Source: Planctomycetia bacterium
GTDB lineage: Bacteria; Planctomycetota; Planctomycetia; Pirellulales; Thermoguttaceae
DNA: 64,000 nucleotides
NCBI GenBank assembly: GCA_030527015.1
Contig: JAUNBR010000001.1
Location: forward strand, 62,001 to 126,000
Direction of reading: 5' to 3'
The notes under the pieces were generated by a model. That model ran no database searches. It worked only from the letters and a program-made list of their open reading frames with translations, and was not told where the DNA came from. Numbering within the stretch: position 1 is the first letter of the stretch; each line of letters starts with the position of its first letter. Below are positions 2,010-63,092 of this stretch, piece by piece. Both the position numbers and the translations under genes were made by a program.

Positions 2010-3344
2010 TTATTTAAATGATGGTTCCATCCCGTGTCGCCGTGCCATGGTCTGTACGGACATGGCCCCCATTTCGACAAGAATTTTGTCGGCCTGAGTT
2101 TCTCGCAGACGGTCCCTTACACTGAGTGTCGGAGGAGTAACGCGGATATAAATCCGATCCATTTCATCTTGTGAAAATTTATTAGCATTTACCGCATTTT
2201 GCATTACCTGTTTCATTAGAAGGATGTCTTCACGTATTAATTCATGCTGCAGACGTTCAAACATTCTTACCGCCGGCCCCTCTGCGACCATCGTCGAAGA
2301 GTAATTGGCATTACTTGCGTCACTGGTGAGCATGAACTCAGGCATGACGATTCTGCTGGCGATCGCGCGTAATTCTGCCTGGAGAATGGTAACATAACGT
2401 GACGCATCCACGGCGGCGGCTGGAAATTCGTAATCCACACCAGAGGACGTATCAAGAATAGTGCCGGGTGAGTATTTTCGGAAATATTTTGCATTCTGGG
2501 AACCACCTGGGGTGAATTGTGTTTTATCCGCCGATGACGCGACGTAACTCTCGATTCCTGATCGGGTGGCGTTACTGTGCTTTCGGATAATGGCGATCGC
2601 CGACTGAATTTCTGCCACGATACTCATGTTTCGTAATAATTTTTCTGCGCGAAATAAATTTTTTCGCACGGGATAAAAAAGAGGAAGGCCACGACGGACA
2701 TTAAAATCCACATTCGCTTTCCTGTGCTGAATATATTCAGCGGGAATTAATTCGTCGTCCACCCAGTATCCCAGAACTTTTTCGACATCTTTAGTGTCTG
2801 TCTGAATGCCGAAACGGTTACAGAGGTGTTCATCACATTCCTGCTGATTTATCAGGAAGGATGGCGCATGAATCTGATCTGGCTCAATAAATCGTAAAAA
2901 GGTTTCTCCGTCCGCATTACTGAAAAATCGGATAAAGACCTCTCCGTCACGGTCTTTCCTTCGGACGATTTCCTGCTGACGTTCACACCACCGGCTTTCG
3001 GAGATAAAATCGTCGAGCCACCTCTGCATTTTAATTAAAGTGGATTTCTGAAGCTCTTCTCCTTCTCGAACTTCCACACGATACGTGTGACCAGATCCGA
3101 CGATAAAGCTGATCCGATTTTCATGCCCGTTTATGGCGAATTCGTTCGTCAGAGCCAGCTGCCGACATGAATTTCGTATCTCCTGTAAAGCCTCTTCTGA
3201 ATGAATTCCTTCATAAGTCCCACTGGAACCGCGGCTGAGAGAGACCCAGTGCTCGTCATCATCAAAAAGATATTCGCGTGGATTAATATCATACATGGAC
3301 TCATATGCTTCCTGTGCTTCTTTTATTAAATGATTAATATTCAT
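2010..3344 (-). CDS. Phage portal protein
   Basis: The 444-residue protein would form the dodecameric ring at the capsid vertex through which DNA is pumped and to which terminase docks. The middle of the protein has the portal pattern of charged residues followed by GEVFIRFF and FIEPDQIHAP, a wing and stem region around residues 215-260, and a C-terminal part with the polar stretch ASNANYSSTM followed by a long helix. A CAGGAAA sequence lies about 10 bases upstream of the ATG. It lies directly downstream of large terminase and upstream of the protease, matching tailed-phage head modules. The frame is intact. Assignment to a lambda-type or other portal family is uncertain. Confidence 0.8.
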   Translation of the reverse strand: MNINHLIKEAQEAYESMYDINPREYLFDDDEHWVSLSRGSSGTYEGIHSEEALQEIRNSCRQLALTNEFAINGHENRISFIVGSGHTYRVEVREGEELQKSTLIKMQRWLDDFISESRWCERQQEIVRRKDRDGEVFIRFFSNADGETFLRFIEPDQIHAPSFLINQQECDEHLCNRFGIQTDTKDVEKVLGYWVDDELIPAEYIQHRKANVDFNVRRGLPLFYPVRKNLFRAEKLLRNMSIVAEIQSAIAIIRKHSNATRSGIESYVASSADKTQFTPGGSQNAKYFRKYSPGTILDTSSGVDYEFPAAAVDASRYVTILQAELRAIASRIVMPEFMLTSDASNANYSSTMVAEGPAVRMFERLQHELIREDILLMKQVMQNAVNANKFSQDEMDRIYIRVTPPTLSVRDRLRETQADKILVEMGAMSVQTMARRHGMEPSFK

Positions 3345-14518: not shown

Positions 14519-14640
14519 CCATCCGATTTCACTTTTAATTTTTGTTTCACTCCGATACAAAAACCAGTATTTTTGCTCTCTGAAATGCCTGTCTGTCACA
14601 GACAGGAAAATGAAAAATTGCCGTTCATCGGATTAAAATG
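14519..14640 (+). repeat. Degenerate element, copy 17, with a GACAG mini-hairpin
   Basis: A strongly diverged copy carrying the palindrome CCTGTCTGTCACAGACAGG (14588-14606) near its middle. The 663-base gap 14391-15053 otherwise holds only a promoter and AT-rich sequence. Confidence 0.5.
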
Positions 14641-17513: not shown

Positions 17514-17680
17514 TATACCCGATACACTATAAAATTCCGCTTCCCCAGCATTTTTGCTTCGCTGAAAATGCTGGCTTCAGAAACGAGTAACATGAAGATT
17601 TAAGGAGAAGCAGTATATCTTTGAGAATGCCGGGCTTTTGTGGCCTCAAGAAAAACAAAATTTAAAGGAATTCAGATTTT
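17514..17680 (-). repeat. Element copy 20 with a trailing extra arm
   Basis: The full copy (17514-17617) has its inner stem changed on both sides to CCAGCATTTT / AAAATGCTGG, a compensated pair. A second, arm-only fragment follows (about 17618-17680). Confidence 0.82.
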
Positions 17681-19256: not shown

Positions 19257-19765
19257 TTTATACTGATGTATTATAAAATTCTGCTTTCCCGGTATTTTTG
19301 CTTTCTGAAAACGCCGGGCTTTTAGAGCCGCACGGAACGGAAAAATAAACGAGAACCAGTAAATACCGGATACACGATAAATTTTTGCGTCCCCGGTTTT
19401 TTTTCTTTCTGAAAACGCCGGGTTTTTAGAGCTGCACGGAGAGGAAAAATAAACGAGAACCAGTAAATCCCGGATACACGGTAAATTTTTGTGTTTCCGG
19501 TTTTTTGCTTTCTGAAAACGCCGGGCTTTTAGAGCCGCACGGAACAGAAAAATAAACGAGAACCAGTAAATCCCGGATACACAGTAAATTTTTGTGTTCC
19601 CGTTTTTTTCTTTCTGAAAATGCCGGGCTTTTAGTGCCGCACGGAACGGAAAAAAAAACGAGAACCAGTAAATACCGGATACACGATAAATTTTTGCGTC
19701 CCCGTTTTTTTTCTTTCTGAAAACGCCGGGCTTTTAGAGCCACACAGAGCGGAATATTAAAATGC
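19257..19765 (-). repeat. Tandem array of five element copies, period about 103 bases
   Basis: One standard copy is followed head-to-tail by four more, with unit starts near 19361, 19465, 19568 and 19670 (periods 104, 103, 102). These units share features not seen elsewhere (AATAAACGAGAACCAGTAAAT, CCGGATACACGATAAA), so the array grew locally. The gap 19243-19903 has no gene; a 113-codon frame through it is repeat translation. Confidence 0.9.
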
Positions 19766-19903
19766 ATCCGTTAAAATGTGTTAAGACATAACATATGCGG
19801 ACGATTTATTAAATGGAAGTTCTGAGGGTACCCATGAAAACAGGCATTTTCGATAAAGGAAAATGCCTGAAAATGGAAATGGTGGTGCGGTCTGAGTTTC
19901 ATT

Positions 19904-26202: not shown

Positions 26203-26310
26203 GTATGATATATTTTGTTTTATATTTCCGTTTTGTGTGGGTTCTGGATCAGGCATTTCAGTAACGTAAAATGCCTGGAAATCGGAAATTTATAATATAT
26301 CGGATATATA
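26203..26310 (+). repeat. Interspersed palindromic element, copy 26
   Basis: A diverged copy whose inner stem is CAGGCATTT / AAATGCCTG, still fully paired. The gap 26102-26980 holds copies 26-28 and no gene. Confidence 0.75.
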
Positions 26311-33948: not shown

Positions 33949-34581
33949 TAAGAATGTTTCTTTATTTTGGTTCCAGGCGCACTATAATAAATTACATGAA
34001 TTTTGTGTGGTCAAAAAGTCTTGCCTGGTACAAAAAATTTTAGGCTGGTTCAGGTCTCCCTCTCCTCCAAAACATGTTTTCTGTACGTGATAATATTCCA
34101 GAAGACATAATCTCATTTTATATGAAAAAAAAAAAGTTGCAACTATATATAATAAGAATAGTTCATTTTGTTTCTAAAAAACAGAGACATTTCTTATTTT
34201 TTTATTAGTGCGATAATCTCTGGTTTATTTCTTTAAAATTTTTTCTAAAAATAGAGTAAAATTTCAGTGTATATTTTTGTGCCGAAATTATAGTGTACTG
34301 TTCTGTTTTAAATTTTCGTGTTATATGATTTTAAAAACAGTATTTTAAGTTTCATAAAATACTGTGAATGTGAAAATGGAGATGCTGTCATGGTATAAAA
34401 TGAGGCGTTTAGGGGAAAAATATGCACATACTGTTAAAAAAAACCGTGTTTTTTGAGATTTTTATCTTTATATTTTGATAAAATAAAAGGAATATTCCGA
34501 TTTTATTAGTAAAAAGTTTTATACTGATTTTGTGGACAGTGATTTTTGTTATTTTAGGTATTTTGGAAAAGGAGTTTTAGG
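33949..34581. other. Divergent promoter region between sbp and the porin gene
   Basis: A 633-base AT-rich gap with one degenerate element. On the minus strand TTGACC (34014-34009) and TATTAT (33989-33984), 19 bases apart, are a weak candidate sbp promoter. No gene is seen. Confidence 0.4.
34293..34397 (+). repeat. Degenerate element, copy 36, with a compensated stem
   Basis: Outer arms are poorly conserved, but the inner stem is ACAGTATTTTA / TAAAATACTGT, fully paired despite differing from consensus on both sides. Confidence 0.6.
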
Positions 34582-41932: not shown

Positions 41933-44900
41933 ATGTTTTCAAAAGATAAAAATTTTCGCCAATTATTATGGTGCGCTCAAGAAATATCTGTGGAAAAAAC
42001 ATGGCTTTTCTCGAGAAAATGGCCCTGGATAAATCTATTATTGGGACGAAAAATAAATATTTTGCGGCGACGAATACCGATATTTATTTATTTTCTTTTT
42101 TTCTGCGTGGAAATGATTTTCAGTACACACTCTGTTTTTGTGCCATTTTCTTTTCTGGAAAGTGATTTATTTTTTAATGTGACTGCATCTGCTCAAGATA
42201 TTTCGTTTCCGAGAAATAATCTGGAAGAAAATGAAAGAAAGGAGAGTAAGGAACCGGGAATTTTTTCTCCATATGTCCAAAATGGGAATGATGCTAAAAA
42301 TAAAGGTGCTGGAGTTTCTCGTGCGGTATTTCCACCTGTGCCATTAACGCCCTCATCTCAAGAGGGAATTCCACTTTATTTAATGAATAAGGACGGACGC
42401 TTGGTGGTGGTACCGGGGATACGTTTAGAACAGTTGGAGCAGATGATCCATGTAAATGGCGGAGAACGGCCTGAAAAATCCTTAAAACCATCAGCTTTTC
42501 CGGAATATATTATTCATTCCATACAGGGAACCGGACAGATCGAAAAAAATTTTGTGAAACTGAAAGTTTTTTTCCGCGTGGAAACCTTTATGGACACCCC
42601 GATAAAAGTGCCCTTACGTTTTAATGAAAGTATTTTATGTTCCATGAAACAGGAGCCGGAGTCTGCCCAAAATCTGGAGGAGCAGAATGTTTTTCGGATG
42701 GTGCAGACGCCAAAAATGGAAAAGGATTCCGAGATTACACAAAATGAGCAGGAAAAGAAAAGTGTTTCGTTTCTGCAGCGAGATTTACGTCTGGTACATT
42801 CTTATCAGGGAGAAGGAAGAATGTGGCTGGAGTTTCAGCAGGAGAACGGCGGTTTTATCGCCTGGATTATGGGAAAAGGAATTCATGAAATGGAGCTTCA
42901 TTTTCTTCTTCCTGTTCAGCGATCTGGGGAGGAAAATTTTCTGTCTCTGGAATGTCCTGCTGCGACCATGTCTGAGTTAAAATTTGAGTTACCACAGACA
43001 CGGGGTGAGTCCGAAATGATGAATGTATCTGTTTCTGAGGGTGCCACTTTATTATCACCACTTTTTGTCGTTCTGGATTCACAGGAAAATCCAAATATCG
43101 CGCGAAATGACGAAAGAGGGATAACTCAATTAAATGTTATGCAGGTAAAAGATACATTACGTTTAGCCTGGAGTATACCTGAGAAAAAAAGGGAGCTTCC
43201 ACGAACTGTGCGTGAAGTGGATGGTCTGATTCTGACGACAATTGAAAAATCAGAGATAAAGTTTACCGCTCAATTAAAGGTGAATATTCATGGACTGCCT
43301 ACGAATCAGATTTTTGTGAGACTCCCATCTGAAGCAGAATGGATACCGACTTTTTCACCGAATTATATAATGCGCGTGCATCAGGAGGTGCAGCCTGAGA
43401 ATATTTCATCCACGAAAGAAAACCCAGAGTCCACGACTTATGTTTCTTCTTCAGTGAAAAAAAACCATTTAAATCAGGAGGAAGTGACGTCTCCTCTGGA
43501 AAAGGAGATGCATATTCCTGGCATCCAGACGGATTCCATGGAGAATAAAAAAGACAGAGTGCTGGTGGAAGTTCTGTTAAAAGAAAAGATCACGGGAACT
43601 GTGAATGTGACGATTCAGGCCAGAATTTCCAAAGAAATGATGTCTTGTGATGACTGGTTCGATTTAGGAGGTTTCGAAGTTTTGGATGCTTCTCGACAGA
43701 CGGGGCATTATGCGATTAAATCTGAACTGAATCGGCATAATCTCTGGGCTCCTGGTGACGGCGTGCGCCGAGTGGAATCTTTACCTGAGGGTACGGTTAC
43801 AGAAAATTTTGAGCCCAGTTCTTCTGATGTTTTGCATGACGAGGAAACATCAGAATCCGGAGAATCTTCAGGACGGATGCTGAAGCCGAGCTCCTCCACA
43901 GAGACATTACCAGAAAATGGTTTTCGGGAAGAGAGTTTATCTCCATTTTCTCCTTCTGAGCAAATGGAGTCGGGTACTGGAGGTGAATCTGATATTTCGT
44001 TTTTTCCCCCTTTAAGGTCAGCGGATGATTCTTCGTTTATATGGAAAACCCATGGTTATTTAACGGCACTACACATGCCGGCAGAAAATGGTGAAGAAGA
44101 AATAAAAAATGAGTTACCCCCACGTGAAAGAAAGGGGGGAACTGAGGGAGCGGATATTATATTCATGGAAGGAAGTTCTGATTCGGTTATGCCGAAGTCT
44201 GTTACGGATTCATCAGGACATCCTGTACCTGAAAATTTATCGGTAACGTCTGATGGTATTTCAGGAGAGATTTCACCAAGAGTTTTGCAGGAAAAAAAGG
44301 AATGGGTGGCTGTTTTTGAATATACGTCACAGCCCATGAGGTTATTAACTCGCCTAATTACGCGCAGTGTTCGGTTAAACGTGGAGCCAGAATATCACGT
44401 AACCGTTACGGATAAGGAAATACAGTTAAAGGGAACCTGGAAGTGTTTTATACGTGGAGGACGCATTTCATGGATAGACGTGGATTTTGGTGACTGGAAT
44501 TTTGATTTTGTTGGTCCGGAGAATCTGATTTTTCTAGAATCTCTGGAAGTGGATGCGAAAGGAAGGATTTCCGTACCTCTGATTCAGCCCACCAGCGGGC
44601 ATTTTGTGCTGACGTTCCAGGCGCACCGGAAGTTATCTGAAAATGAGTCGGAAGTGGAGTTTACATTTCCGCAGGTGGTACAGAATCAGGCGGTTTCGGT
44701 GATTCAGACGGCCACTCCCGCAGAAGTATGTGTGCAGCCGGCGGTAAATATCGAGCTGGTACCGAATATGGAAAAGATAAGCTCCATGACACGCCTTCCC
44801 AAGATAAGCGGCAGTCAGAAAAAAACGTCGCCGGTAAACGCTTTTTATTATCGCTGCGAAAATGCACGTGCGGTATTCGCGGCCACGAGAAAGATTCATA

Positions 44901-46945
44901 CTCAGGCGATTTCTGTGCGCCAGCTTTCACGTCTGGAGGTTTATCCAGAAAGATACCATGTGTATCAGACATATGAATATAAGGTTTCATATGTGCCGAT
45001 TCAGCAACTAAAATTTATTTTACCGGAAATAAATACGGAAATGATGGATGTGTATATTTCACATCAGGAGTTTCCGAATGGTGATGTTCCATCTGGGGCA
45101 GGGGAAAGAGAGTTTTATATTTCTGGCGAGCATGGGATTTTAGAATATGATGTGTCGCATCAGAATGGAGGGACGGGAAGCAGTTTTTTGACGGATAATT
45201 TTTATCGGAGTCCATATGTGCCTGTGTTTACGACACGGCGTCCTGTGGTAAGAATTGCTCCGTTATCTGGCGGAGATTTACAGAAACGTCAGATGGATGT
45301 TACGGTGCAGCTGCCGGAGGAGAAAATCGGTATTTTTTATGTGACATTTAGTTATACTGTTTCTTCAGAGAAATTATCGGCGGCGGTCAGTCATCTTCGT
45401 GATTATTTTCTGGGCGTATCCCAGGACGGTACTCTGCAGGAAAACCGTCTTCGTGTTTATGCACATCCGTCCATTCAGGTGATGCCTTTACCGGTGACGA
45501 GTGAAAGTACGCAGTGGAAGGAATATCAGCTTATGTCGGAGGCGAATCGTTTCAGTGAAGTGGTAATTCGGGCGGTACAGGATGGTCTGGATTATGTGCA
45601 GCTGGGGATTTTGTCACCACGGACGGGGTCTGTGGGATCAGAGAAAACGGTGTCTGAGTCTGGGATTCCAGGGGAATTTAATATTCGGCCAAAAGAATCG
45701 CTGTCTGTTCAGGGTGAAGTTTCCGGTGGAGAAGTTTCATCCGAGGATAAAGCACGTTCAGCACAAGACATTTCTCTTTCTTCAGTTAAGAGAGTGTCCA
45801 GAATTCCATTTTTGTTGGAGTGCCGTTCTTCTTCTGCACAGGAACGGATTATTTTGGCTGTGGAATTACGAGAAAAAGATCCTCAGTCGTTAACGATAAT
45901 AGATCGTTACTGGCTTCAGAGCTGGATAGCGGGGAATATTCGGCAGGATCGTGCCGCTTTTCTTTTCCAGCCGGTGGTAACAGAAAATACTTTTTCGGGG
46001 GGAGGGGAAGAATATAATGATGGAACGGAAAATAATTACATTCCTTCACGAAGATTTACGGTTCAGCTTCCGACAGGTGCTTCGGTGGATGAGGCGGAAG
46101 TATGGATTAATCATCGTCCCGGGAGGATGGGAACGGATGTAAAACGTCTGTCGGCCAATTCATTACAGATTACACTTCAGAGTGTTCCGGATAATCTTCC
46201 ATGTACGGTGGAAGTGCGCTATCAATTTCCCTGTAATCTTCAGACGGAAGAAAAAATTCGGATGGAAGTGCCGTATGTGGAGGATGCGGCGTGGATCCGT
46301 GGAATGTACTGGCAGGTGGTGGTTCCAGGGAATGTTCATATTATATCACCACCGGAAGGTTTTTCCATGGAATATCGGTGGGCGTGGAACCGATTTTTTT
46401 GGGGACGTGTTCCTTTATGGGAGCAGGCATCTCTGGAACGCTGGAGTGGCGCTTTTCAGGGAACTCCCGCGCCTGGGACGATGAATCGGTATGTGTTCGC
46501 GGGAATGGGAGCCAGAGATACTCTGAAAAATGGAGTGTCCGTTTTTGTGGTGAATCGGACGACGCTTGTGTCTTTATTAGCGGTGGTGGTTTTTTTGTGT
46601 GGGTTTATTTTTATTCATTTTAGCTGTGTTAGACATCCGCTATTTTTGTTGGCATTACTGATTATTTTGGGAGGTTTTGGTCTGAGGTATCCCGATTTAA
46701 CGTTACTTGCTCTGCAGGCGGCGTCTCTGGGTGCAGTTCTGGTGGTGATTTCCGTGCTGTGTAATTTTTATAACCGTGGGCCGTTCCGTTCTGGTGGAGA
46801 AATTGTAGTGGAGGCAGAGACGACGATTTCTCCATCTCAGAAAACTATTATTACGCCGATTACGGAGGATGTGTCACCATCCGCTGCGGGAATGCAGTCA
46901 CAGAGACTTTCGCCGTCAGATAAAGAAGTGGAGCGGCCGGGATGA
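41933..46945 (+). CDS. Giant exported membrane-anchored protein 1 (1,670 residues)
   Basis: An unusually long N-terminal leader holds a hydrophobic segment at 49-68 and a likely cleavage site after TASA (residue 87). Motif PLYLMNKDGRLVVVPG then LEQLEQMI (about 148-172) precedes a long beta-rich exoplasmic region. Residues about 600-790 are a Ser/Glu/Pro-rich linker. A later segment has IDRYWLQSWIAGNIRQDRAA (about 1323-1342). The C-terminus has three hydrophobic segments (about 1543-1612) and a short Ser/Pro tail. No enzyme motif is visible. Genes 2 and 3 follow on the same strand with similar architecture. A surface or envelope scaffold is my inference. No Shine-Dalgarno is seen at the start. 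Confidence 0.72.
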   Translation: MFSKDKNFRQLLWCAQEISVEKTWLFSRKWPWINLLLGRKINILRRRIPIFIYFLFFCVEMIFSTHSVFVPFSFLESDLFFNVTASAQDISFPRNNLEENERKESKEPGIFSPYVQNGNDAKNKGAGVSRAVFPPVPLTPSSQEGIPLYLMNKDGRLVVVPGIRLEQLEQMIHVNGGERPEKSLKPSAFPEYIIHSIQGTGQIEKNFVKLKVFFRVETFMDTPIKVPLRFNESILCSMKQEPESAQNLEEQNVFRMVQTPKMEKDSEITQNEQEKKSVSFLQRDLRLVHSYQGEGRMWLEFQQENGGFIAWIMGKGIHEMELHFLLPVQRSGEENFLSLECPAATMSELKFELPQTRGESEMMNVSVSEGATLLSPLFVVLDSQENPNIARNDERGITQLNVMQVKDTLRLAWSIPEKKRELPRTVREVDGLILTTIEKSEIKFTAQLKVNIHGLPTNQIFVRLPSEAEWIPTFSPNYIMRVHQEVQPENISSTKENPESTTYVSSSVKKNHLNQEEVTSPLEKEMHIPGIQTDSMENKKDRVLVEVLLKEKITGTVNVTIQARISKEMMSCDDWFDLGGFEVLDASRQTGHYAIKSELNRHNLWAPGDGVRRVESLPEGTVTENFEPSSSDVLHDEETSESGESSGRMLKPSSSTETLPENGFREESLSPFSPSEQMESGTGGESDISFFPPLRSADDSSFIWKTHGYLTALHMPAENGEEEIKNELPPRERKGGTEGADIIFMEGSSDSVMPKSVTDSSGHPVPENLSVTSDGISGEISPRVLQEKKEWVAVFEYTSQPMRLLTRLITRSVRLNVEPEYHVTVTDKEIQLKGTWKCFIRGGRISWIDVDFGDWNFDFVGPENLIFLESLEVDAKGRISVPLIQPTSGHFVLTFQAHRKLSENESEVEFTFPQVVQNQAVSVIQTATPAEVCVQPAVNIELVPNMEKISSMTRLPKISGSQKKTSPVNAFYYRCENARAVFAATRKIHTQAISVRQLSRLEVYPERYHVYQTYEYKVSYVPIQQLKFILPEINTEMMDVYISHQEFPNGDVPSGAGEREFYISGEHGILEYDVSHQNGGTGSSFLTDNFYRSPYVPVFTTRRPVVRIAPLSGGDLQKRQMDVTVQLPEEKIGIFYVTFSYTVSSEKLSAAVSHLRDYFLGVSQDGTLQENRLRVYAHPSIQVMPLPVTSESTQWKEYQLMSEANRFSEVVIRAVQDGLDYVQLGILSPRTGSVGSEKTVSESGIPGEFNIRPKESLSVQGEVSGGEVSSEDKARSAQDISLSSVKRVSRIPFLLECRSSSAQERIILAVELREKDPQSLTIIDRYWLQSWIAGNIRQDRAAFLFQPVVTENTFSGGGEEYNDGTENNYIPSRRFTVQLPTGASVDEAEVWINHRPGRMGTDVKRLSANSLQITLQSVPDNLPCTVEVRYQFPCNLQTEEKIRMEVPYVEDAAWIRGMYWQVVVPGNVHIISPPEGFSMEYRWAWNRFFWGRVPLWEQASLERWSGAFQGTPAPGTMNRYVFAGMGARDTLKNGVSVFVVNRTTLVSLLAVVVFLCGFIFIHFSCVRHPLFLLALLIILGGFGLRYPDLTLLALQAASLGAVLVVISVLCNFYNRGPFRSGGEIVVEAETTISPSQKTIITPITEDVSPSAAGMQSQRLSPSDKEVERPG

Positions 46946-47013
46946 TTTTTTCGTATATTTCTGGAGGCAGATTTTTACAGAGGCAGAAATGTCGTGAAGA
47001 TTTAATATTATCT

Positions 47014-47161
47014 TTTTATATTCGGTGCACTGTAAATTTTAGTTCATATCACATTTTTTCCCCCGATGTACGATAAAATTTTGCTTTTTCAGTATTTTGC
47101 TTCATTAAAAGTGCCTGATTTCGAGCCACACAAAACGGGAATTTAATGGAGAATCAGTATA
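47014..47161 (-). repeat. Element copy 41 preceded by a partial copy
   Basis: The partial unit (47014-47055) has only an arm; the full unit (47056-47161) ends with TTTAATGGAGAATCAGTATA. Confidence 0.75.
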
Positions 47162-47184
47162 AAATGTATAAAATACGGTTTTTG

Positions 47185-47270
47185 CATGGTCATGAAAACT
47201 GGATTTTTAGAGAATTAAAAATATCGTGGATGTGAAAATTTAGAATGCATCGGATATAAAATACTCTGAG
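47185..47270 (+). repeat. Degenerate element fragment
   Basis: Inner hairpin and right arm (GTGAAAATTTAGAATGCATCG) without a left arm. Confidence 0.5.
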
Positions 47271-47350
47271 GAAATATAATTTTATAGATTCAGGTATATG
47301 AGTTTCTGATATGAATAGGCGGAGAATGAACTTTCTTTTGTGTAAAAATT

Positions 47351-47456
47351 AATACAGGTTCCGGTTTATTTTTGTTTTATTATAAACAGTTTCGGCCTGT
47401 CTTTTCGGCAGCACGAAATGCTGTGGTTTTGGAAATTATGGTGCGTCAGGTATGAA
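47351..47456 (+). repeat. Element copy 43 overlapping the start codon of giant gene 2
   Basis: The right terminus (GGTGCGTCAGGTATGAAAA) corresponds to the consensus GTGTATCGGGTATAAA, and its TATG supplies the start codon at 47452. The inner part contains a CTGTCTTTTCGGCAG mini-hairpin. Confidence 0.7.
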
Positions 47457-50400
47457 AATGCTGAAAAATGGTGTGGTATTAAAATGTTTTTTACATACTC
47501 TGCTTTTTTGTGGAGTGGTGTCTGGAATGTTATGGATATTTTCAGATTTTTGTATGGCGCAGCGAGAGATTCGTTCGGATCTGCCGGTAAATATTTCAGA
47601 GGAAAAATCAGAAAATGAAGCGATTAAATCAGAGAAAAAATCAGAAACGGAAATAGAAGGAAGTTTAAAAACGGAAACGAAAGAAGGTTTACGAAAAGAA
47701 GCAGAAGCAGAAGGAGAAATAAAAGAGAGAACAGAATTTTCAGGGAGGAATTCGGAAATAGAAAAGGCAGAGGATAATGATTTAAACACGGTTCCATATG
47801 CATTTCGGCGTGTATATGTGCCGACAGAATTAGTGGAGTCTTTACCGAATAGTGGAGTCGCGTACTGGCCGATAGAAGCGGAAAAATTTGAACGGTGGGT
47901 CAGAGCCGTGGAATCTGAAAAGTCTCGCCCGAAACAGGAGGAAGGTGAGCTGATACCTCGATCTGCGTATTATTGCGCGACTTTTGATAATAATATGCTG
48001 ATAAATGGGATGTCCCTGATTAACTTATGTAGTGCTGAAGAATGTATTTTGTCTGATACCATACCGAAAAATTATGTTTGGCATTTTCGTTCGGGAAATT
48101 TTGCTTTGGATCGTGTGGTGTGTATGACAGAGGCTCCTTTCCAAAATCTGGAAGAGGTATCCGTTTTTGCTGCGAAAGAGTATAAACCGAATATGGAAAC
48201 TCCAGAGATGGAAAATGTATCATTTTTACCTGATGGAACAGGTGAAATGAAATTTCCTCATACGGTGATTAACCAGCAGAAAGAAAGTACTGTTTTTATG
48301 CAGTGGACGCAAAAGAATAGTCTGCTGGAAAAGGATCGTGCTATTTTTGATCTTCATTTTTTTTCTGCGCTGGATACGACTTTTGATATTTTCTTGCCAA
48401 AGAATCAGGTTCCGGTAATATCTCATGGATTACGAGAATGTCTTGGTGAATTTTCACATGAGGAAAGAAAAATGGAGTCTTTCGTTTTATGGCGCTTTCA
48501 CCTGGGAGGTAATCACAGGGTAAAGCTGGTCGTTATGTCGCGGGATTCTTATGATAATATTTATCCAGTAAAATTTTCTCAAAAGAACTGGTATAAGTTT
48601 CAGAAAACAGGTTTAGATGTTTTAGTTCGTATGAGTATGGACGCATTTTTAGATAAACTGGAGAATGAACGAGAAAATAATTCTCCACAGTTTTATAAGG
48701 TTCGTGTGGATTCCAGGCTAATACTGACGGAAGTGACGTATAATCGTGAGCCGGTGAAATGGCGGTATCTTGAGAATGACGGTAAAAATACGAGGAATGG
48801 ATTAAATTTAGATGATGGTTCTGAAAGTGAAAAGGAAGTAGATATTTTGCTGGAATTTCCTCAAGAGGTGCGTGGAGAAGGAAATATTTTGGAGTTTCGG
48901 GCGATCGAAAATCCCCTGGGGGGAGGGGCGGTAACGGCAGAACATTCGGATGTTTCGTATATTACAGAGAATCAGAGAGAGGAACAGTTTATAGTACCGG
49001 GAACTGTTCAGGCGGTGGGTGTGGGGGCATCCAGAGATGGGAAACAAGAAAAGCGCCCTATTTTGAATTGTGCTGCAGGGAACCGTATATCCGCTGAGAG
49101 GGAGATGTCTTTACCGAAAATTCGTATGCTGAATGCTTTTTGGTCTGAGGGAAAAACTGTAGTTTTGACGGAGGAGCCGATTCAGGTAACGGATATTTAT
49201 CTGGAAAAAGGACAGATTCTTTTTTCTGATCAGGAGAAAACTTTAGCGAAAAAGGAAAAGAAAGGGGATGTTTCTGAAGAAGTACCTCTGATGGTGTCAT
49301 TACTGGAAGTGGAAGAATTTTCACAGGATGCTTCACTAAAACTCCACCTTACCGTTTTACAGGAAAAGATTTTTGTAAAAGCTGTAACATTACTGAATTT
49401 TCAGCAGACGGATATTTCTGCCACGGCTGAGTTTCATTTTTCATCAAAAATCGGTGAGAAATTTCTTGTCGGAGTGCCGGTGGATTCTCGGTGGATTATT
49501 GATTCAGTAGAGTCCGTTACACCTGGGATGATTCAGGACTGGCGTCTGGATGAAATGTGGGAAAAAGATATATTACAGAGTCGGAATCCAGAGAGTCAGC
49601 AGAAGAGTATTATTTTTGAAGAGAAAACACGAGGAATGAATACCCGGCTTTTAAGGGTAAATCTCGTGCATGCGGTCAGACCGGGGCATGATTTAAAGCT
49701 GCGTGTCCGCGCCCGAAGATTAGGTGTGTTACCTCGCGAAGAATTTACATCAGGTGAACTTATTCCTTTTCCTTTTCATGAAAATCAGGAACAGGAACAA
49801 GAAATGTGGATGATAGTCGGAACCTCTTTTTCATGGGAATTATGTCTTTCGGATGAATATCAAAAATGGCAAAAAGAGATTTATGAATTAAATTTTAGTC
49901 AGAATAAATCTGTCCATGGAATATCCGGAGAACCTGTGGACGCAGAGAAGTCTGAAAATATGTCATCTGTAGTTTCCTCAGAGATAAATACATTTCCTGA
50001 TTATGTTCAGGAGTTTCTTGCCCGCCAGAAGACTGCTGATGCATCCGATGATTTTCTTATCATGAAACGAATTCCGGAGCAGGATGATATGGTGATGCTT
50101 CAGGTGGCGCACCGACCTTCTGTATATACAGCGGAAATAAAGGGGTTTTATGATTTAACGTGGCCCCCGCAGTCAAAAGCAGTTTTTACAGTCATGTGTA
50201 CACCAAAAAATTCTTCGGTGGAAAGAGTTTTGGTGTATATAAATCCTGCGACATATTTTGATCTTACCTGGAAATTTCCCGAATATTTAGAGGGAAGTGT
50301 CGTAAGATGTATAGAAAAAGTAACGAAAGATGAGAATATCTTTGAGGAAAATTCTTTTGAGATATGGGAAATCGTTTTTGCTTCTCCACGGACCCGACCA

Positions 50401-51972
50401 TTCCAGTTCGATTTATTTTTGTTTCCACCAGATTTTTCGACTCTAGAAACCGCGGCGCATGAAAGTGAGTATGATGATAAGGTTACACAAGAAATTGGAA
50501 ATTCAGAGAAAAGGAACATTTCAGCTGTCGGAAATCAAAAAACTGAATTACTGAAAAGAGCGGAAAAGTTTTTAGACGTCCTTCGTGTATCGAAAGAAGG
50601 AATTCCATTAAATCTTATTTCATTACCAGAAGCGGAAGAAAGTACCGCAGAGGTTACCCTCAGGCGTAACATGTCTGGATATATTTTTCCGCGCTGTCAG
50701 CGAATGACGCCATTATTTTTTCATGTGCCCTCAGGAGATATTCCGCCAGGTATTTTATGGAGCTTTCGGTATGTTCCACAGATGCTGGAATCTCGGCTTT
50801 ATTCCCCACAGCTTCATTTAATGTGGAAGCAGGAAGAGACAGAAAAGGCACAGACCTGGATATGGAATGAGGAACATCAGTCACAATTTTTCCCGGGAGG
50901 AGTCGTGCTACATATAATTACCTGGGATATAGAAAATCCGGGCGCGACGGATTTTAAAATTGACATGACGGATATTTGTGGAAAAGACTTTCATTTACTT
51001 GGCGTGTTCATGGATGGCCGCAGAATTTCTGGAATTAAGTGGGGAGAGAATGTGGATAATATACTTAAAATACAGCTCCCGGAATGGAAAAGTAATACGA
51101 AAGTAATATTACAGTGGATACAGAAAGATGATCCTTTACAGATTTTGGATACCTTAAAATCACGGCGTCCGAAAACGAATCTTCTGACGCTAAATTCCAC
51201 ATGGAAACTCTGGGTTCCGGATAATTATGCACCGATTCATTTACCCTGGAGTTCTGATGCACTCATTCAGGAACTGTCGGAAAGAAAAAATAAAAAAGAG
51301 AAGGAATATACGGAACCGTATGAAAAATTTTTGCATTCTGAAAATAGTGTAATATATCGTTTTCTTGGGAATATGATTTTCAGAGGGAGTTTTTTACAGG
51401 ATACCCCGTCTTCTCTTGCTGCACCGGAAAACCATACTGCGGATATTTATGAAAAATCTTTTTTGATGGATAAACAGGACTGGCTTTCTCTGGTGGCCAT
51501 TTCGCAGCAGTGGAATTCGGCGAATCTGGAATTTCATGTGGGATGGACCCCTTTTCTGGCGTCCGATATTTCCTCATTCCGCGTGGTTCATCGCAGTGCA
51601 CTGGAGGCTTCTCGCTGGTTTCTTCTCTTGGTGTTTTTTTTGATTTTTTCCCGTTATTTTAAGAAATATCGAGCATTCAGGATTTTTCTTTGCGGTGCTT
51701 CAGCGGCTGCCTGTCTGACAGTTTCCCCTGTATTTTCTCCGATATTTTCAGGGATATTTCTTGGAATGCTTCTTTCTTTTGCGCTTCATTCTGCACAAAG
51801 ACACAGAATTAGAATTCGTGAAAAATATCCAAAAGTTATTCGCGTATTTACGCCTGAAAGAGTCGAGAATTTTTCCACAAAAACTGGGCAGCATCTCTCT
51901 TCCACCTCCCATAAAACGGTGGATTTCCCTGTACCGATCATTCAGTCGAATAACAGGAGTCCTGACAAATGA
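47452..51972 (+). CDS. Giant exported membrane-anchored protein 2 (1,506 residues)
   Basis: A normal signal peptide (hydrophobic 9-31, cleavage near CMAQ) is followed by a highly charged Glu/Lys linker (45-105). Then comes VYVPTELVESLPN (about 121-133), analogous to the short motif near the start of the other two giants, and a long beta-rich region. YDLTWPPQSKAVFTV and a domain around 1060-1110 (RRNMSGYIFPRCQR) stand out but match no family I know. The C-terminus has a hydrophobic cluster (about 1387-1450) and a basic cytosolic tail of about 55 residues. The stop overlaps the start of gene 3 (ATGA). The start codon lies within an intergenic element and has no Shine-Dalgarno. Confidence 0.72.
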   Translation: MKMLKNGVVLKCFLHTLLFCGVVSGMLWIFSDFCMAQREIRSDLPVNISEEKSENEAIKSEKKSETEIEGSLKTETKEGLRKEAEAEGEIKERTEFSGRNSEIEKAEDNDLNTVPYAFRRVYVPTELVESLPNSGVAYWPIEAEKFERWVRAVESEKSRPKQEEGELIPRSAYYCATFDNNMLINGMSLINLCSAEECILSDTIPKNYVWHFRSGNFALDRVVCMTEAPFQNLEEVSVFAAKEYKPNMETPEMENVSFLPDGTGEMKFPHTVINQQKESTVFMQWTQKNSLLEKDRAIFDLHFFSALDTTFDIFLPKNQVPVISHGLRECLGEFSHEERKMESFVLWRFHLGGNHRVKLVVMSRDSYDNIYPVKFSQKNWYKFQKTGLDVLVRMSMDAFLDKLENERENNSPQFYKVRVDSRLILTEVTYNREPVKWRYLENDGKNTRNGLNLDDGSESEKEVDILLEFPQEVRGEGNILEFRAIENPLGGGAVTAEHSDVSYITENQREEQFIVPGTVQAVGVGASRDGKQEKRPILNCAAGNRISAEREMSLPKIRMLNAFWSEGKTVVLTEEPIQVTDIYLEKGQILFSDQEKTLAKKEKKGDVSEEVPLMVSLLEVEEFSQDASLKLHLTVLQEKIFVKAVTLLNFQQTDISATAEFHFSSKIGEKFLVGVPVDSRWIIDSVESVTPGMIQDWRLDEMWEKDILQSRNPESQQKSIIFEEKTRGMNTRLLRVNLVHAVRPGHDLKLRVRARRLGVLPREEFTSGELIPFPFHENQEQEQEMWMIVGTSFSWELCLSDEYQKWQKEIYELNFSQNKSVHGISGEPVDAEKSENMSSVVSSEINTFPDYVQEFLARQKTADASDDFLIMKRIPEQDDMVMLQVAHRPSVYTAEIKGFYDLTWPPQSKAVFTVMCTPKNSSVERVLVYINPATYFDLTWKFPEYLEGSVVRCIEKVTKDENIFEENSFEIWEIVFASPRTRPFQFDLFLFPPDFSTLETAAHESEYDDKVTQEIGNSEKRNISAVGNQKTELLKRAEKFLDVLRVSKEGIPLNLISLPEAEESTAEVTLRRNMSGYIFPRCQRMTPLFFHVPSGDIPPGILWSFRYVPQMLESRLYSPQLHLMWKQEETEKAQTWIWNEEHQSQFFPGGVVLHIITWDIENPGATDFKIDMTDICGKDFHLLGVFMDGRRISGIKWGENVDNILKIQLPEWKSNTKVILQWIQKDDPLQILDTLKSRRPKTNLLTLNSTWKLWVPDNYAPIHLPWSSDALIQELSERKNKKEKEYTEPYEKFLHSENSVIYRFLGNMIFRGSFLQDTPSSLAAPENHTADIYEKSFLMDKQDWLSLVAISQQWNSANLEFHVGWTPFLASDISSFRVVHRSALEASRWFLLLVFFLIFSRYFKKYRAFRIFLCGASAAACLTVSPVFSPIFSGIFLGMLLSFALHSAQRHRIRIREKYPKVIRVFTPERVENFSTKTGQHLSSTSHKTVDFPVPIIQSNNRSPDK

Positions 51973-54900
51973 AAATATATCTAAATAAAAACGGAGTTAT
52001 GAAAATAAAAGTTATGCATGGCGTCAGTTCTGAAAAAATATACTTACGGAAATACGACGAATATGTTTTGCGAAACACACACAGAAATTTTTATAGATTT
52101 CTGATGCTTCTGTTTATCTGGAATGTAATGTTTTGGCCAGAAAAAAATCATACTCTTCAGGCACAGTATTTTATTCCGGAGAGAACGGAAGTTTCTGATC
52201 CCATGCGGGAACGTTCTGTGCCTCTAATTTCTTCGCAAGAACATTCTCCCGGGATTTCGTATACGCCGGGGATGGATACAGAATCTGGTAATGACAGAGA
52301 GAGTTTAGATTCTGAAACTGGGAATGCGCATGTTCGGAGAGAATCAGTGTACGGTGAAGTGTCTGGACCGAAAATAGGGCTTCAGGAAATTTTGGGGCGC
52401 GATAAAAAAACAGAGATTATAAACGGAAAAAATACGGGTGATGTTTCGAGTATCTCTGCGAAAGATTACCCATGGATATTTATTCCAGTGGACAAAAATA
52501 ATGTTCCCACAGGAGAGGACTATTATATTCCGCTGGACATGTTCCGACATTTACATAATGGTTTGTCGGAAGGAAATATAAAAAAATCTGAAGACTATAA
52601 ATTTCGAAAGGCGTCTTATCATGGTCAGTTACGTTTTTCCTCTTCTTCGGCGGAGACGCTTACACTGGATACAGTTACTGCATCATATGAGCTGGAAACT
52701 TTTTCGGAGAATACTCGGATTTATCTTCCGATGCTCGCTTCTGAGATATATTTGTCCGCGGGCGGTGCCTCACTTAATGGGTATCCCTTACAGGCGATTT
52801 GGGAGAATGGAAAATTGGCTTTTGACATTCCGCGTGCAGGAATTTATGTTTTGGAAATACGTTTTTTTTCTGTGTTAAATAATGAATCCTCCCTGACGGC
52901 AAGAACCCCGGCTTCTTCGAGTAAAAAAACGGTTTCAGAAAGTATTTCAGAATACCAGGGAGAAATACAGTTTTCCATTCCTCCTGTGGCCAATTCACGA
53001 CTGATTCTGGAAGTGCCGCCGAATTCAGGGGAAATTGATTTTCCGTCTGCTAAAGGAAAAATATCATATCAGGCGTCTTCTCAGAGATGGCAGGTTCAGC
53101 TGGGTGATGCGAATAAAGTGAAGGTGCGCTGGAAGAAGCCGATTCCTCCTGAAACGTTTTCTTCGTCCATGAATGTGGAAGAATTTTATCACTGGATAAT
53201 TACGCCAAAAGGAATGACACTTCAGTGCAGGTACCGTTACCGGATACAAAAAAAGAATCAGACGTATCTAGAGTGGATTACGGAACCACACGCTCTTATT
53301 CAGAAGTTACCTGTGCAAAATAATGAATCGGTGAATGTTTTTTCTTTACCTTATGAATCGGGACGAGAAATGGGTAAAAATGAAAGAACGGTAATGGGAA
53401 ATTCTGCACAGGGAGGAATTTTTTTGACAGACGAAAGAGTCGTGGTGCGCTCTTCAGTCGGGGAAAGAAATTTATCGGATGAAATTTCCCGAACGGAGGA
53501 AATGGTATCTCAAAATATGTTGTTTCCTGTATTAAAAACGTATGCGGAAGATGCACGTCAGAAAATTCGTATGGACTTTTCTTCCCCTCTGGAAGGGCAA
53601 GTTGTCTTGGGTTTTGATGTTCAGTTTCCTCATGTTTCGGTAATAGGTAAGCATTTATTTCCCTGGATATATCCCAGTGATGTGAAGTCGATTCGTCGGT
53701 GGATCGCAGTGAGCGTCATGGATTTAGAGGGAGAACTGAAATATCTTTCGGCGCCATCTGTTACGGAGCTTACCATTCCAGAATTTATGTCTGTCTGGAC
53801 GGATATAAACAGTATTTTGAAACTGGGACAGCCGAAGGAGCGTGCGATTAATCCGAAATTTGTAAGAGATGATACTTCTTTAAAGAACATAATTTCTCGC
53901 ACGTGGTATATGGAAACCATTCCTGGAAAGCCGGTTTATCCGGTGACAGAAACACAGTCACTTCTCTGTCTTCTTGATCGGATACATGTGCAGTACGTGG
54001 CGGCATTTTCTTCTGTGGATGCCATGCCATTTTTTTGTCATCTGAATGTACCTGAAAATTTTCAGCCTAAAAGGATGGTTTTAAGGGAAAAGAATCGTGA
54101 ATTACCAGTACGTTATCGGTGGATTTCTCCGACAGAACTGGGTGTTTATTTAGATAATTCGGTTACGGAACGAGTTTTGGGCGAAAACCGGTTTTTGCAG
54201 AGTAATTCTCAGACGACGATATTACCTTCACTGAAGGTGCCACCTGCGCCGCAACTGATTCTTGAAGGAGAGATCGCGCTTCCGGTAATGGGAGAAACAG
54301 AAAATCTTTCTGAAGGGAATGAGGAAAAGGATTTTGGCGAGAAAAATAAGAAGAGAGACTGTGAAATTCCATTATTTAGAATAACGCTGAAGGATGATTT
54401 TTTTACGTTTTCATCTAGAAGAGTAAAGATATATCGTGGCTCAGAAACTTTATTGGATTTTAAGGATCTTCCGGATGAAGTTCTGTCCCGGTCAAGTTTT
54501 GCATCTTTTGGAATTTTGGAAAAAGAAGATTCGGCGGTAAAACCCCCGGTGTCTTCGGAAAGAGAAGCGTCTGATTTTTCGAATGGTGGAGGAACGGTTT
54601 ATTTAACAGAAAATACGGGTGAAGGTTTTCGTAATGCACAGCTTTCCGCCAGTCTTTCGTATCTGGAGAATGAGGATATAAAAGGAAAAATTATCATAAA
54701 AGCGAATTCTCCTCGTGTGGAAATACGTCAAAGAACGTCATTAATTATGGATGAGAAAGAGGATGTCTCTCCCACGGAGGGGACTTCACGTGTGGTGGGA
54801 AATGGAAATCATGGAAATAAAGAGTCCTGGTCCTTTCGGATGGAAATTTTATTGGATGTTAAAGATGGTTTATTGGATGAGTTTACTCTGGATCTTCCGT

Positions 54901-57017
54901 ATAACTGGAAAGGCCCATTTTCTTTGGAGCCGGCCATTCCGTTTTCCATAAGTGAATATGAAAAAAGAAAATCATCGGTGTATAATCCTGTAACTTTTTC
55001 GTTACATTCTGGTATTAAAAAAGAGAAAGTGACGTTTTCCACAGAAGAAAATTCAGAGGAAAATGTTTTAGGGCAGGAAACGCGAAAACGAATGATTATT
55101 CGCCCATTTCATCCATTTCGTGGAAAGCAAAAAATAATTATTACTGGCTCTGCGCGAGAAATTCAAAATGCATTAATAAAGGAAGAAGTGTCTTATGTAT
55201 TTCCTCGTGTTTATTTTCCAGAGGGGGTGGTGATTCAAGAAGATTTTGTCATGCCGGAATTTTCTGAAAATATGAAAATGGAAGGAAAAGTGCTGGAATG
55301 GAATGTAGAGGGAATGGATCTGGTGCAGGTATCTAGTCTTGAGGGAGAGACTGTAGATGTGAAGAAAACGGATATACCAGAGACTGGGAAAACAGAGGAA
55401 AAGAGAGGAATCGCCGAAACGGAAGAAGCGGAGCCGAGGATGGTGAAATTAGCCGAGGAGAGCTCATTATATGAGGAAGAGAAGCACCAGAAAAGGGAGG
55501 AACTTTCAAAAAGAGAGGGTACCGTCGGATCTGGGCGGAAAGGTTCCGCGCAGACGGTAATAGAGGCAGATTCCAGTCGGATTTATACGCAGCCTGGTGT
55601 GAGGAAAATTTATCGTGCCAGAGAGAAAAATTATATGGCACGGCTTTTGATCACATCAGTTGCGCCACCTAAAGTGCAGCAGCTGTGGGTGTCACATCAT
55701 CTTTCTTGGAATTCATTTCAGAAAAAAAGTGGAGACATAAATTTTCTTCTGTTATCTGTTTTTGATATTCTTCCGCATCAGGCGAGTCACTGTGTGGTGG
55801 TGTTACCGGAAATGGTGTCACCTCTGGAATTTCGGATGGACGGATTTCCCACCCAAGTAAAGCGGTTATCTTCATCAGAAATTTCAGGTGAAAATATTTT
55901 GCCCGGTTATAATTATTATCAGGTTTCTTTTTATTCAGGGTTTTTGCCAAAACGTCTGGAAGTTCTTTCACGTGGTCATGTCAAAAGGCGATCGGTGCCG
56001 GTAAATGCCGATTCTTCGGTTCCGTCAGGAATTACGTCTCGAGAGGCAAGTTTTGTATCTTTACTGCAGTTTCCCTTTTTGTATAATGCTGTTTTCCCCG
56101 AAGATAAAGAGGATAATAATGTTCATGGAAGCTGTTATGTGTATTTACCAGAAGCATGTGATGTCCGTATGTGGAAATGGAAAGATGCGCGAGCGGTAAC
56201 ACGGATTTCTGCTCGATCTTTGTTAAGAATAGAGCTGGACTGTATGAATTATTTATTTCGTATGATGCAGCGTGCTTCTGAGAGTGATAAGATAAAAGAT
56301 ACGGAAGTATTCTCACCAGAAATGGCTGAAAATTTGCCAGAGGAATTTATTATCTGGAGGCGATTTTGGGAGATGATCTGGCAGCGGAAAGTTTCATATG
56401 TCTCACAGTTATTACAGCATCAGAGGCGTAATGATTTAAGAGAGTATATGCAGGATTTTGAAGGATTACGTGAAAAAGGTGAGAAACTGTTTTCCGGAGT
56501 GAATTCAGTTTTTGCAGGAAAATTTTTAGAGAATCGGCCATCTGTGACGCAGTGGAAACCGCTGGAGGAAACTTTCAGGGAAAGTTTATTTCCTGCATCT
56601 TCTTCAGATGTTCAGAGGATGGTACCAGGTGCGGAGTTACTCGTTTTTGATTTTGAAAATCCGGAAGAAACAGCGAGAAATTTACGAAATTCTTCTGCGG
56701 TACATGAACTTTTTTTGACGGAACTGATTTCTTCCAGTGGAATTCATGATACGCTGAATTTTATAAATCCGGCGTGGCGCTCTGAACATTTTTATGCCGC
56801 AATTTTTGTTTTTGCTCTGACTATTTTATTTGCGCTGGGAATTCATTTTTTTCCTGCCGTTTTAGATATTACGTACACGACACCTTACTGGCTGCTGGTG
56901 TGTGGCTTTTTGTGGTTACTGTGTGATTTCCCTGTATGGTGGGTGGCGATATTTTTATTTTTGATGGCGGTATTTATTGTCGTCTGGCGCGCCAGAAATG
57001 TAGTGAGAAAAAATTGA
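51969..57017 (+). CDS. Giant exported membrane-anchored protein 3 (1,682 residues)
   Basis: The start overlaps the stop of gene 2 by four bases, so the two are translationally coupled. The N-terminal leader is long (hydrophobic 43-57, likely cleavage near LQAQ). FIPVDKNNVPTGEDYYIPLD (about 168-187) opens the ordered part, followed by a beta-rich domain (YHGQLRFSSSSAETLTL and onward). A charged Glu/Lys/Arg linker occurs around 1120-1190. The C-terminus has about four hydrophobic segments (1608-1673) and a short basic end. There is no catalytic motif. Shared layout, length and order with genes 1 and 2 suggest three subunits of one envelope assembly, an inference only. Confidence 0.72.
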   Translation: MKIYLNKNGVMKIKVMHGVSSEKIYLRKYDEYVLRNTHRNFYRFLMLLFIWNVMFWPEKNHTLQAQYFIPERTEVSDPMRERSVPLISSQEHSPGISYTPGMDTESGNDRESLDSETGNAHVRRESVYGEVSGPKIGLQEILGRDKKTEIINGKNTGDVSSISAKDYPWIFIPVDKNNVPTGEDYYIPLDMFRHLHNGLSEGNIKKSEDYKFRKASYHGQLRFSSSSAETLTLDTVTASYELETFSENTRIYLPMLASEIYLSAGGASLNGYPLQAIWENGKLAFDIPRAGIYVLEIRFFSVLNNESSLTARTPASSSKKTVSESISEYQGEIQFSIPPVANSRLILEVPPNSGEIDFPSAKGKISYQASSQRWQVQLGDANKVKVRWKKPIPPETFSSSMNVEEFYHWIITPKGMTLQCRYRYRIQKKNQTYLEWITEPHALIQKLPVQNNESVNVFSLPYESGREMGKNERTVMGNSAQGGIFLTDERVVVRSSVGERNLSDEISRTEEMVSQNMLFPVLKTYAEDARQKIRMDFSSPLEGQVVLGFDVQFPHVSVIGKHLFPWIYPSDVKSIRRWIAVSVMDLEGELKYLSAPSVTELTIPEFMSVWTDINSILKLGQPKERAINPKFVRDDTSLKNIISRTWYMETIPGKPVYPVTETQSLLCLLDRIHVQYVAAFSSVDAMPFFCHLNVPENFQPKRMVLREKNRELPVRYRWISPTELGVYLDNSVTERVLGENRFLQSNSQTTILPSLKVPPAPQLILEGEIALPVMGETENLSEGNEEKDFGEKNKKRDCEIPLFRITLKDDFFTFSSRRVKIYRGSETLLDFKDLPDEVLSRSSFASFGILEKEDSAVKPPVSSEREASDFSNGGGTVYLTENTGEGFRNAQLSASLSYLENEDIKGKIIIKANSPRVEIRQRTSLIMDEKEDVSPTEGTSRVVGNGNHGNKESWSFRMEILLDVKDGLLDEFTLDLPYNWKGPFSLEPAIPFSISEYEKRKSSVYNPVTFSLHSGIKKEKVTFSTEENSEENVLGQETRKRMIIRPFHPFRGKQKIIITGSAREIQNALIKEEVSYVFPRVYFPEGVVIQEDFVMPEFSENMKMEGKVLEWNVEGMDLVQVSSLEGETVDVKKTDIPETGKTEEKRGIAETEEAEPRMVKLAEESSLYEEEKHQKREELSKREGTVGSGRKGSAQTVIEADSSRIYTQPGVRKIYRAREKNYMARLLITSVAPPKVQQLWVSHHLSWNSFQKKSGDINFLLLSVFDILPHQASHCVVVLPEMVSPLEFRMDGFPTQVKRLSSSEISGENILPGYNYYQVSFYSGFLPKRLEVLSRGHVKRRSVPVNADSSVPSGITSREASFVSLLQFPFLYNAVFPEDKEDNNVHGSCYVYLPEACDVRMWKWKDARAVTRISARSLLRIELDCMNYLFRMMQRASESDKIKDTEVFSPEMAENLPEEFIIWRRFWEMIWQRKVSYVSQLLQHQRRNDLREYMQDFEGLREKGEKLFSGVNSVFAGKFLENRPSVTQWKPLEETFRESLFPASSSDVQRMVPGAELLVFDFENPEETARNLRNSSAVHELFLTELISSSGIHDTLNFINPAWRSEHFYAAIFVFALTILFALGIHFFPAVLDITYTTPYWLLVCGFLWLLCDFPVWWVAIFLFLMAVFIVVWRARNVVRKN

Positions 57018-58125: not shown

Positions 58126-58141
58126 AGATCCTATTTTTATA

Positions 58142-58283
58142 GCCGGTATACTATAAATTTCCGCTTTTCTGGTATTTTAGTTTCGCTGAAAATACCTGCT
58201 TTCAGAGCTGCACAAAACGGAAATTTAAAGTGGAGGCAGTATAAAAGCTGTACAAAACGGAAATTTAAAGGAAAACCTGTGTA
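58142..58283 (-). repeat. Element copy 45 plus an isolated repeated arm, upstream of xerC
   Basis: The full copy has a compensated inner stem GGTATTTT / AAAATACC. After it the last about 40 bases (ACAAAACGGAAATTTAAAG) are repeated once more. Confidence 0.86.
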
Positions 58284-60171: not shown

Positions 60172-60341
60172 AGATCCTGACTCTCCTTAAATTTCCCATT
60201 TTATGTGGTTCTGGATGAGGCATTTTCAGTGAAATATACTGGTTCCACTTTAAATTTCCGTTTTTTGCGGTTCTGAAAGCAGGCATTTTTAGCGAAGCAA
60301 AATGCCGGGGAAGCGGAATTTTATAGTGTATCGGGTGCATG
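60172..60341 (+). repeat. Element copy 47 with a leading extra left arm
   Basis: A left arm and hairpin half (60172-60234) run into an almost consensus full copy (60235-60341) with TACTGGTTCCACTTTAAATT. It separates pgi and rdgB; the rest of the 370-base gap is empty. Confidence 0.88.
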
Positions 60342-62802: not shown

Positions 62803-62909
62803 TATACTGGTTCCAATTTAAAATTTCGTTTTGTGCGGTTCTAAAAGCAGGCTTTTTCAGCGAAGCAAAAAAGCCGGTGAAGCTAAATTTTATAATGTAT
62901 CGGGTATAT
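62803..62909 (+). repeat. Interspersed palindromic element, copy 50, in the ispE leader
   Basis: Inner stem GGCTTTTT / AAAAAAGCC, compensated relative to consensus GGCATTTT / AAAATGCC. Both termini intact. Confidence 0.88.
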
Positions 62910-62910
62910 T

Positions 62911-63008
62911 ATACTGATTCTCGTTAAATTTCCGTTTTATGCGGTTCTGAAAGCGGATTTTCAGCAAAAAATGCCGTGGAAGCGAAAATTTATAGTGCAT
63001 CGGGTATA
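62911..63008 (+). repeat. Interspersed palindromic element, copy 51, in the ispE leader
   Basis: It abuts copy 50 in the same direction, sharing a TATA-containing junction. Its inner hairpin is shortened. Confidence 0.85.
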
Positions 63009-63092
63009 AAATTTTGCTTCCTAAATTATTTTTGCTTTTCGATATACTTTTTGAGTAAACACCATGAGATTTTCACCTGGAGGATCATTCAC

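Follow-up and report, generated by a model that had tools for sequence, protein, structure and literature searches.

The window, a stretch of 64,000 nucleotides (G000:C42:62001–126000) within a 3.84-Mb planctomycete assembly of 132 contigs, carries several tens of copies of a MITE, on both strands. The copy from which this study started lies on the plus strand at 62803–62908 (nhmmer model 2–107, E = 9e-30), belongs to the A51T/T70A subfamily and is followed head to tail by a second plus-strand copy at 62910–63009 (nhmmer E = 2e-24). Its inner hairpin, read directly from the sequence, has a left arm GGCTTTTT at 62850–62857 and a right arm AAAAAGCC at 62868–62875. A preliminary description of this DNA listed five such stems, and all of them are in the sequence: in addition to the stem at 62803, CCAGCATTTT/AAAATGCTGG in a copy at 17514–17617 and GGTATTTT/AAAATACC in a copy at 58137–58243 (both on the minus strand, from reading and the nhmmer profile), CAGGCATTT/AAATGCCTG in a copy at 26219–26308 (plus strand, model 16–107, E = 3e-13) and ACAGTATTTTA/TAAAATACTGT in a very degenerate possible copy at 34299–34375 (plus strand). 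Their grouping as one family stands for the copies described at 62803, 17514, 58142 and 26203, and is marginal for the one at 34293, with a profile E of only 0.33. The top profile score among the window copies belongs to 60235–60338 (plus strand, nhmmer E = 4.5e-34). At 19263–19769 on the minus strand, the nhmmer profile finds a tandem array of five head-to-tail copies, repeating about every 103 bp, which suggests that copies inserted one after another into the TATA end of a neighbour. Elsewhere in the window are a gene for a Lambda-family phage portal protein (2010–3344), possibly part of a prophage remnant, and three consecutive very large open reading frames of 1670, 1506 and 1682 aa (41933–57017).

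The family consensus, TATACTGGTTCCACTTTAAATTTCCGTTTTGTGCGGCTCTGAAAGCAGGCATTTTCAGCGAAGCAAAAATGCCGGGGAAGCGGAAATTTATAGTGTATCGGGTATAA, is about 107 bp long and ends in imperfect inverted repeats, like those of a resident insertion sequence of IS630 type (DDE_3). The element is short, multi-copy and non-coding, with 32 of 724 copies inside open reading frames of at least 120 aa. TA is present at both ends in 194 of 280 young copies, as expected of a duplicated TA target, and when the flanks of young copies are joined the target reads TA followed by A in 74%, 83% and 74% of cases at the next three positions. The MITE also inserts into itself. Joining flanks recovered the restored empty targets of such nested insertions, with 67 junction-spanning matches, a few of them counted once for each strand, in which the insertion lies in an older copy or in a fragment. 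The commonest of these targets, TA(AAAA), lies on the edges of the inner-hairpin loop, and the nested insertions fall mostly at model positions 64–67 (for example, L022:15311, L033:12237, L042:3882 and L043:19266), as well as at 55–57 on the other strand. The loop edges are used because TA with A-rich sequence arises there, matching the general TA-AAA preference; the idea that insertions recognize the structure of the hairpin loop was dropped, since the preference of ordinary insertions accounts for these sites. Many low-scoring copies have an extra short palindrome (like CCTGTCTGTCGGCGGACAGG) directly to the right of the inner stem, among them L031:18001–18126, L045:6750–6882 and window 14523–14633. 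These copies may form a subfamily, or the palindrome may be a second repeat that has inserted; a search with a narrow pattern returned five occurrences, all five in MITE copies. An early impression of a distinct strong-hairpin class among low-scoring copies was abandoned, many of these copies holding inserted extra palindromes.

A profile search at E < 1e-3 over the window and 40 further stretches of the genome (L021–L060), 788 kb in all, gives 903 non-overlapping copies, which together occupy 89 kb (11.3%) of the sampled DNA; the same search of the reversed 788-kb sequence gives none. We estimate about 4,400 copies genome-wide, a figure extrapolated from a sample drawn mostly from contigs with known matches. 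Across the whole genome, the left-end pattern alone (with up to three mismatches) occurs 2,076 times, compared with 3 for a control pattern. One MITE family at about 11% of the sampled DNA is, to our knowledge, unusually heavy for a bacterium and among the densest known. Among the higher figures given in a recent review are 711 copies of ERIC in Photorhabdus (PMC10969869).

IS630-type DDE_3 transposase genes are present in the genome, some of them interrupted by MITE insertions. The right terminal repeat (TIR) of the resident DDE_3 element, TATACTCATGCCATTTTAAAATT, agrees with the left end of the MITE at 18 of 23 positions and with the right end at 15 of 23; outside TATAC, the left-end match is 13 of 18 (shuffle p = 0.0003). 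As a probe, TATACTCATGCCATTTTAAAATT finds forty matching places, many at contig ends, as expected for a collapsed repeat. Within the genus, the left-end TIR pattern is abundant in the window species (G000) and in G004, G005 and G007; four other species have almost none of it. DDE_3 was found in three of the four TIR-rich species (G000, G004 and G005) and in none of the four TIR-poor ones. The search for DDE_3 in G007, which carries a related family, gave no match, and this counts against assigning the enzyme as helper. With ends of IS and MITE that are similar and not identical, the DDE_3 enzyme is a candidate helper transposase.

These features bear on the proposal, made in the preliminary description, that the hairpin could be a single-stranded DNA transposition substrate. 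An element of the REP/RAYT or IS200-like kind, its hairpin recognized by a Y1 HUH transposase, would be palindromic, intergenic and high in copy number, as this one is. However, a search of G000 for Y1_Tnp (PF01797), in an assembly about 93% complete, gave no match where control genomes were positive, and what is found instead is TA target duplication, IS630-like terminal repeats and DDE_3 copies. We consider such a mechanism very unlikely here.

The preliminary description had also taken paired changes in the inner stem as compensatory, and hence as selection for structure rather than passive decay. We used the sequence profile alone to align 582 near-full copies, a near-full requirement that favours conserved ends, and scored all column pairs with an APC-corrected G-test against 100 alignments simulated on a FastTree tree with site-specific frequencies and rates. 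This null is our own approximation of R-scape, and the tree is weakly resolved, the copies being short and star-like. No inner-stem pair is significant against it, the best being 51–70 (E = 5.8); on this large sample, the outcome for this genome is the one that the preliminary description had itself named as refuting its claim. The top-scoring columns are largely the signature of one subfamily. The double change at 51–70 (A-T to T-A), the type of the 62803 copy, belongs to a single subfamily of 21 copies, most of which have also changed at columns 14, 21, 24, 41, 76, 82 and 93; outside this subfamily, compensated doubles at 51–70 number 1 copy against 2.4 expected. Pair 50–71 (C-G to T-A, the 58142 type) has 26 compensated copies against 25.5 expected, and pairs 49–72 and 48–73 have 10 doubles each, against 8.5 and 6.7. 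Three of these four variable pairs show doubles at the rate of independence, the fourth being the single subfamily at 51–70. Pair 55–66 has a small excess (5 compensated doubles against 0.6 expected) and lies in an A-run where the alignment is ambiguous.

Further tests point the same way. The pooled Mantel–Haenszel odds ratio for paired transitions in the 582 copies is 1.17 (CI 0.82–1.68), and splitting these transitions by old, middle and young copies gives nothing significant. Arms fold no better with their own partners than with arms from other copies (−7.41 versus −7.36 kcal/mol, p = 0.45); swapping arms between nearest neighbours is uninformative, since such close copies generally carry fewer mutations. 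In an independent count on 36 window copies, 91.1% of stem cells are paired, compared with 90.7% after random exchange of arms between copies (the observed value is reached in 136 of 500 shuffles), and two cells are altered on both sides where 1.1 are expected. In neither set are paired changes shown to exceed chance. After insertion, resident copies decay mainly by C-to-T and G-to-A changes, uncompensated, and the paired stem changes listed in the preliminary description are one subfamily signature together with coincidences of decay.

A different picture emerges between species and families. The G000 consensus inner stem, GGCATTTT...AAAATGCC, is paired at 8 of 8 positions. The related family of the sister species G007 is similar to the G000 family at its ends, and its inner stem reads GTC(A/G)TTTC...GAAA(T/C)GAC, also 8 of 8 paired, in which pairs 2 and 8 are switched on both arms relative to G000, and pair 4 likewise in about half of the copies. 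At this pair 4 (model columns 51 and 68), 122 G007 copies (loci L087–L106 and L199–L238) comprise 55 A-T, 48 G-C and 14 mixed combinations of A/G with T/C. No pair anywhere in the element scores higher, and it lies above every one of the 300 null alignments simulated (E about 0.003); covariation was not seen at the other seven stem pairs in the same copies. There are slight differences between the A-T and G-C classes elsewhere in the element, so the pattern is explained equally well by two source lineages that split long ago and by repeated switching; a count of AT/GC switches on the G007 tree gives one supported independent pair and favours neither reading. In G000, the A51T/T70A subfamily has likewise turned stem pair 4 from A-T to T-A. 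The G004-B and G005 families have similar ends and inner hairpins that are quite different in sequence, the G004-B stem pairs being almost invariant. At G005 loci L146, L151 and L154, a MITE-like family with similar ends has GC-rich central hairpins, AAGCCCCTCCC...GGGAGGGGCTT, with a centre unrelated to the window family.

The claim of structural selection is thus divided: it fails for resident copies, which decay passively, and in a weaker form keeps some ground between species and subfamilies, where the hairpin is probably retained. Selection on the hairpin as an RNA element in every resident copy would fit a consensus that folds better than shuffles (z = −4.6), the stems kept by related families and the one covarying G007 pair. 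Against it stand the missing covariation among the 582 copies and the equal pairing of own and swapped arms, together with an orientation relative to tandem genes of 182 against 178, which shows no bias, and no Rfam family matched at gathering score. Such per-copy selection is refuted for the G000 genome at the sensitivity used, and we regard the RNA option of the preliminary description as very improbable.

Selection could instead act on the hairpin only in active source elements, for example in synapsis, in excision or by lessening harm to the host, and the switches between families would then be true compensation. The changes between G000 and G007 speak for this, always affecting both arms of a fully paired stem, as do the pair 4 change in the G000 subfamily and the unrelated inner hairpins of the G004 and G005 families. 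However, there are only about four independent switches, and one of eight G007 pairs covaries. We also know of no requirement for an inner hairpin in IS630-type cut-and-paste transposition. We hold this explanation to be a serious one, at somewhat less than even odds. Paired changes could also arise without selection, if palindrome-templated repair or template switching copied one arm onto the other. Symmetric changes, such as those at pair 4 in G007 and in the G000 subfamily, would then need a single step; yet, if frequent, the process should leave an excess of doubles in resident copies, and the pooled odds ratio reveals none. This origin appears unlikely.

We read the 62803 feature, with a probability of roughly 80%, as one copy of a non-autonomous, RUP-like MITE of IS630/Tc1-mariner type that decays passively once inserted. 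The element inserts where TA precedes an A-rich stretch (TA AAA), including inside older copies, and duplicates the TA; an IS630-type transposase would move it in trans by cut-and-paste, in line with the co-occurrence within the genus. The MITE has spread to an estimated 4,400 copies, each then left to decay without compensation. With less confidence, we propose that the inner hairpin is kept in a few active source lineages and not policed copy by copy, with perhaps four independent switches, because related families in sister species have consensus stems that pair completely although their base pairs are not the same. A further step, that selection acts on the central hairpin as part of the active element and that IS630-type MITEs use or need it for mobility or host tolerance, is rather doubtful; it is raised because in two species or more the source lineages changed stem pairs on both arms while keeping all eight pairs, and because other families of the genus bear unrelated central hairpins.

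The hosts of RUP and of the window MITE belong to different phyla, and we know of no relation between the two sequences. RUP, the repeat unit of pneumococcus, is about 107 bp long, intergenic and targeted to TA (PMC2229807, PMC3049150). In these respects the window MITE is alike, and both have ends resembling a resident IS630 element (IS630-Spn1 for RUP), are found inserted into IS copies and form a tight hairpin that includes the TIRs (PMC2229807, PMC3049150). RUP occurs in about 108–110 copies per genome (PMC2229807, PMC3049150), whereas the window MITE has an estimated 4,400. The Correia/NEMIS elements of Neisseria, with over 120 copies in N. gonorrhoeae according to a review, resemble the MITE in their length of 100–150 bp, TA termini, long terminal inverted repeats, hairpin transcripts and high copy number (PMC10969869, PMC2229807); RNase III processing and promoters are known for the Neisseria elements. 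REP/BIME elements with RAYT transposases share the extragenic palindromes and high copy number (PMC2817692). RAYT is a Y1/HUH enzyme (PMC2817692), of which none was found in G000, and in contrast to REP/BIME, the window MITE is longer, has TIRs and duplicates TA.

Choosing copies from a decaying, AT-biased repeat family easily yields apparent compensatory changes, and a subfamily signature mimics covariation. Making up about a tenth of the sampled DNA, the family is a good natural data set on MITE decay and target choice. If selection truly lies behind the stem switches at the level of source elements, they would suggest a role, so far unknown, for the centre of IS630-type MITEs.
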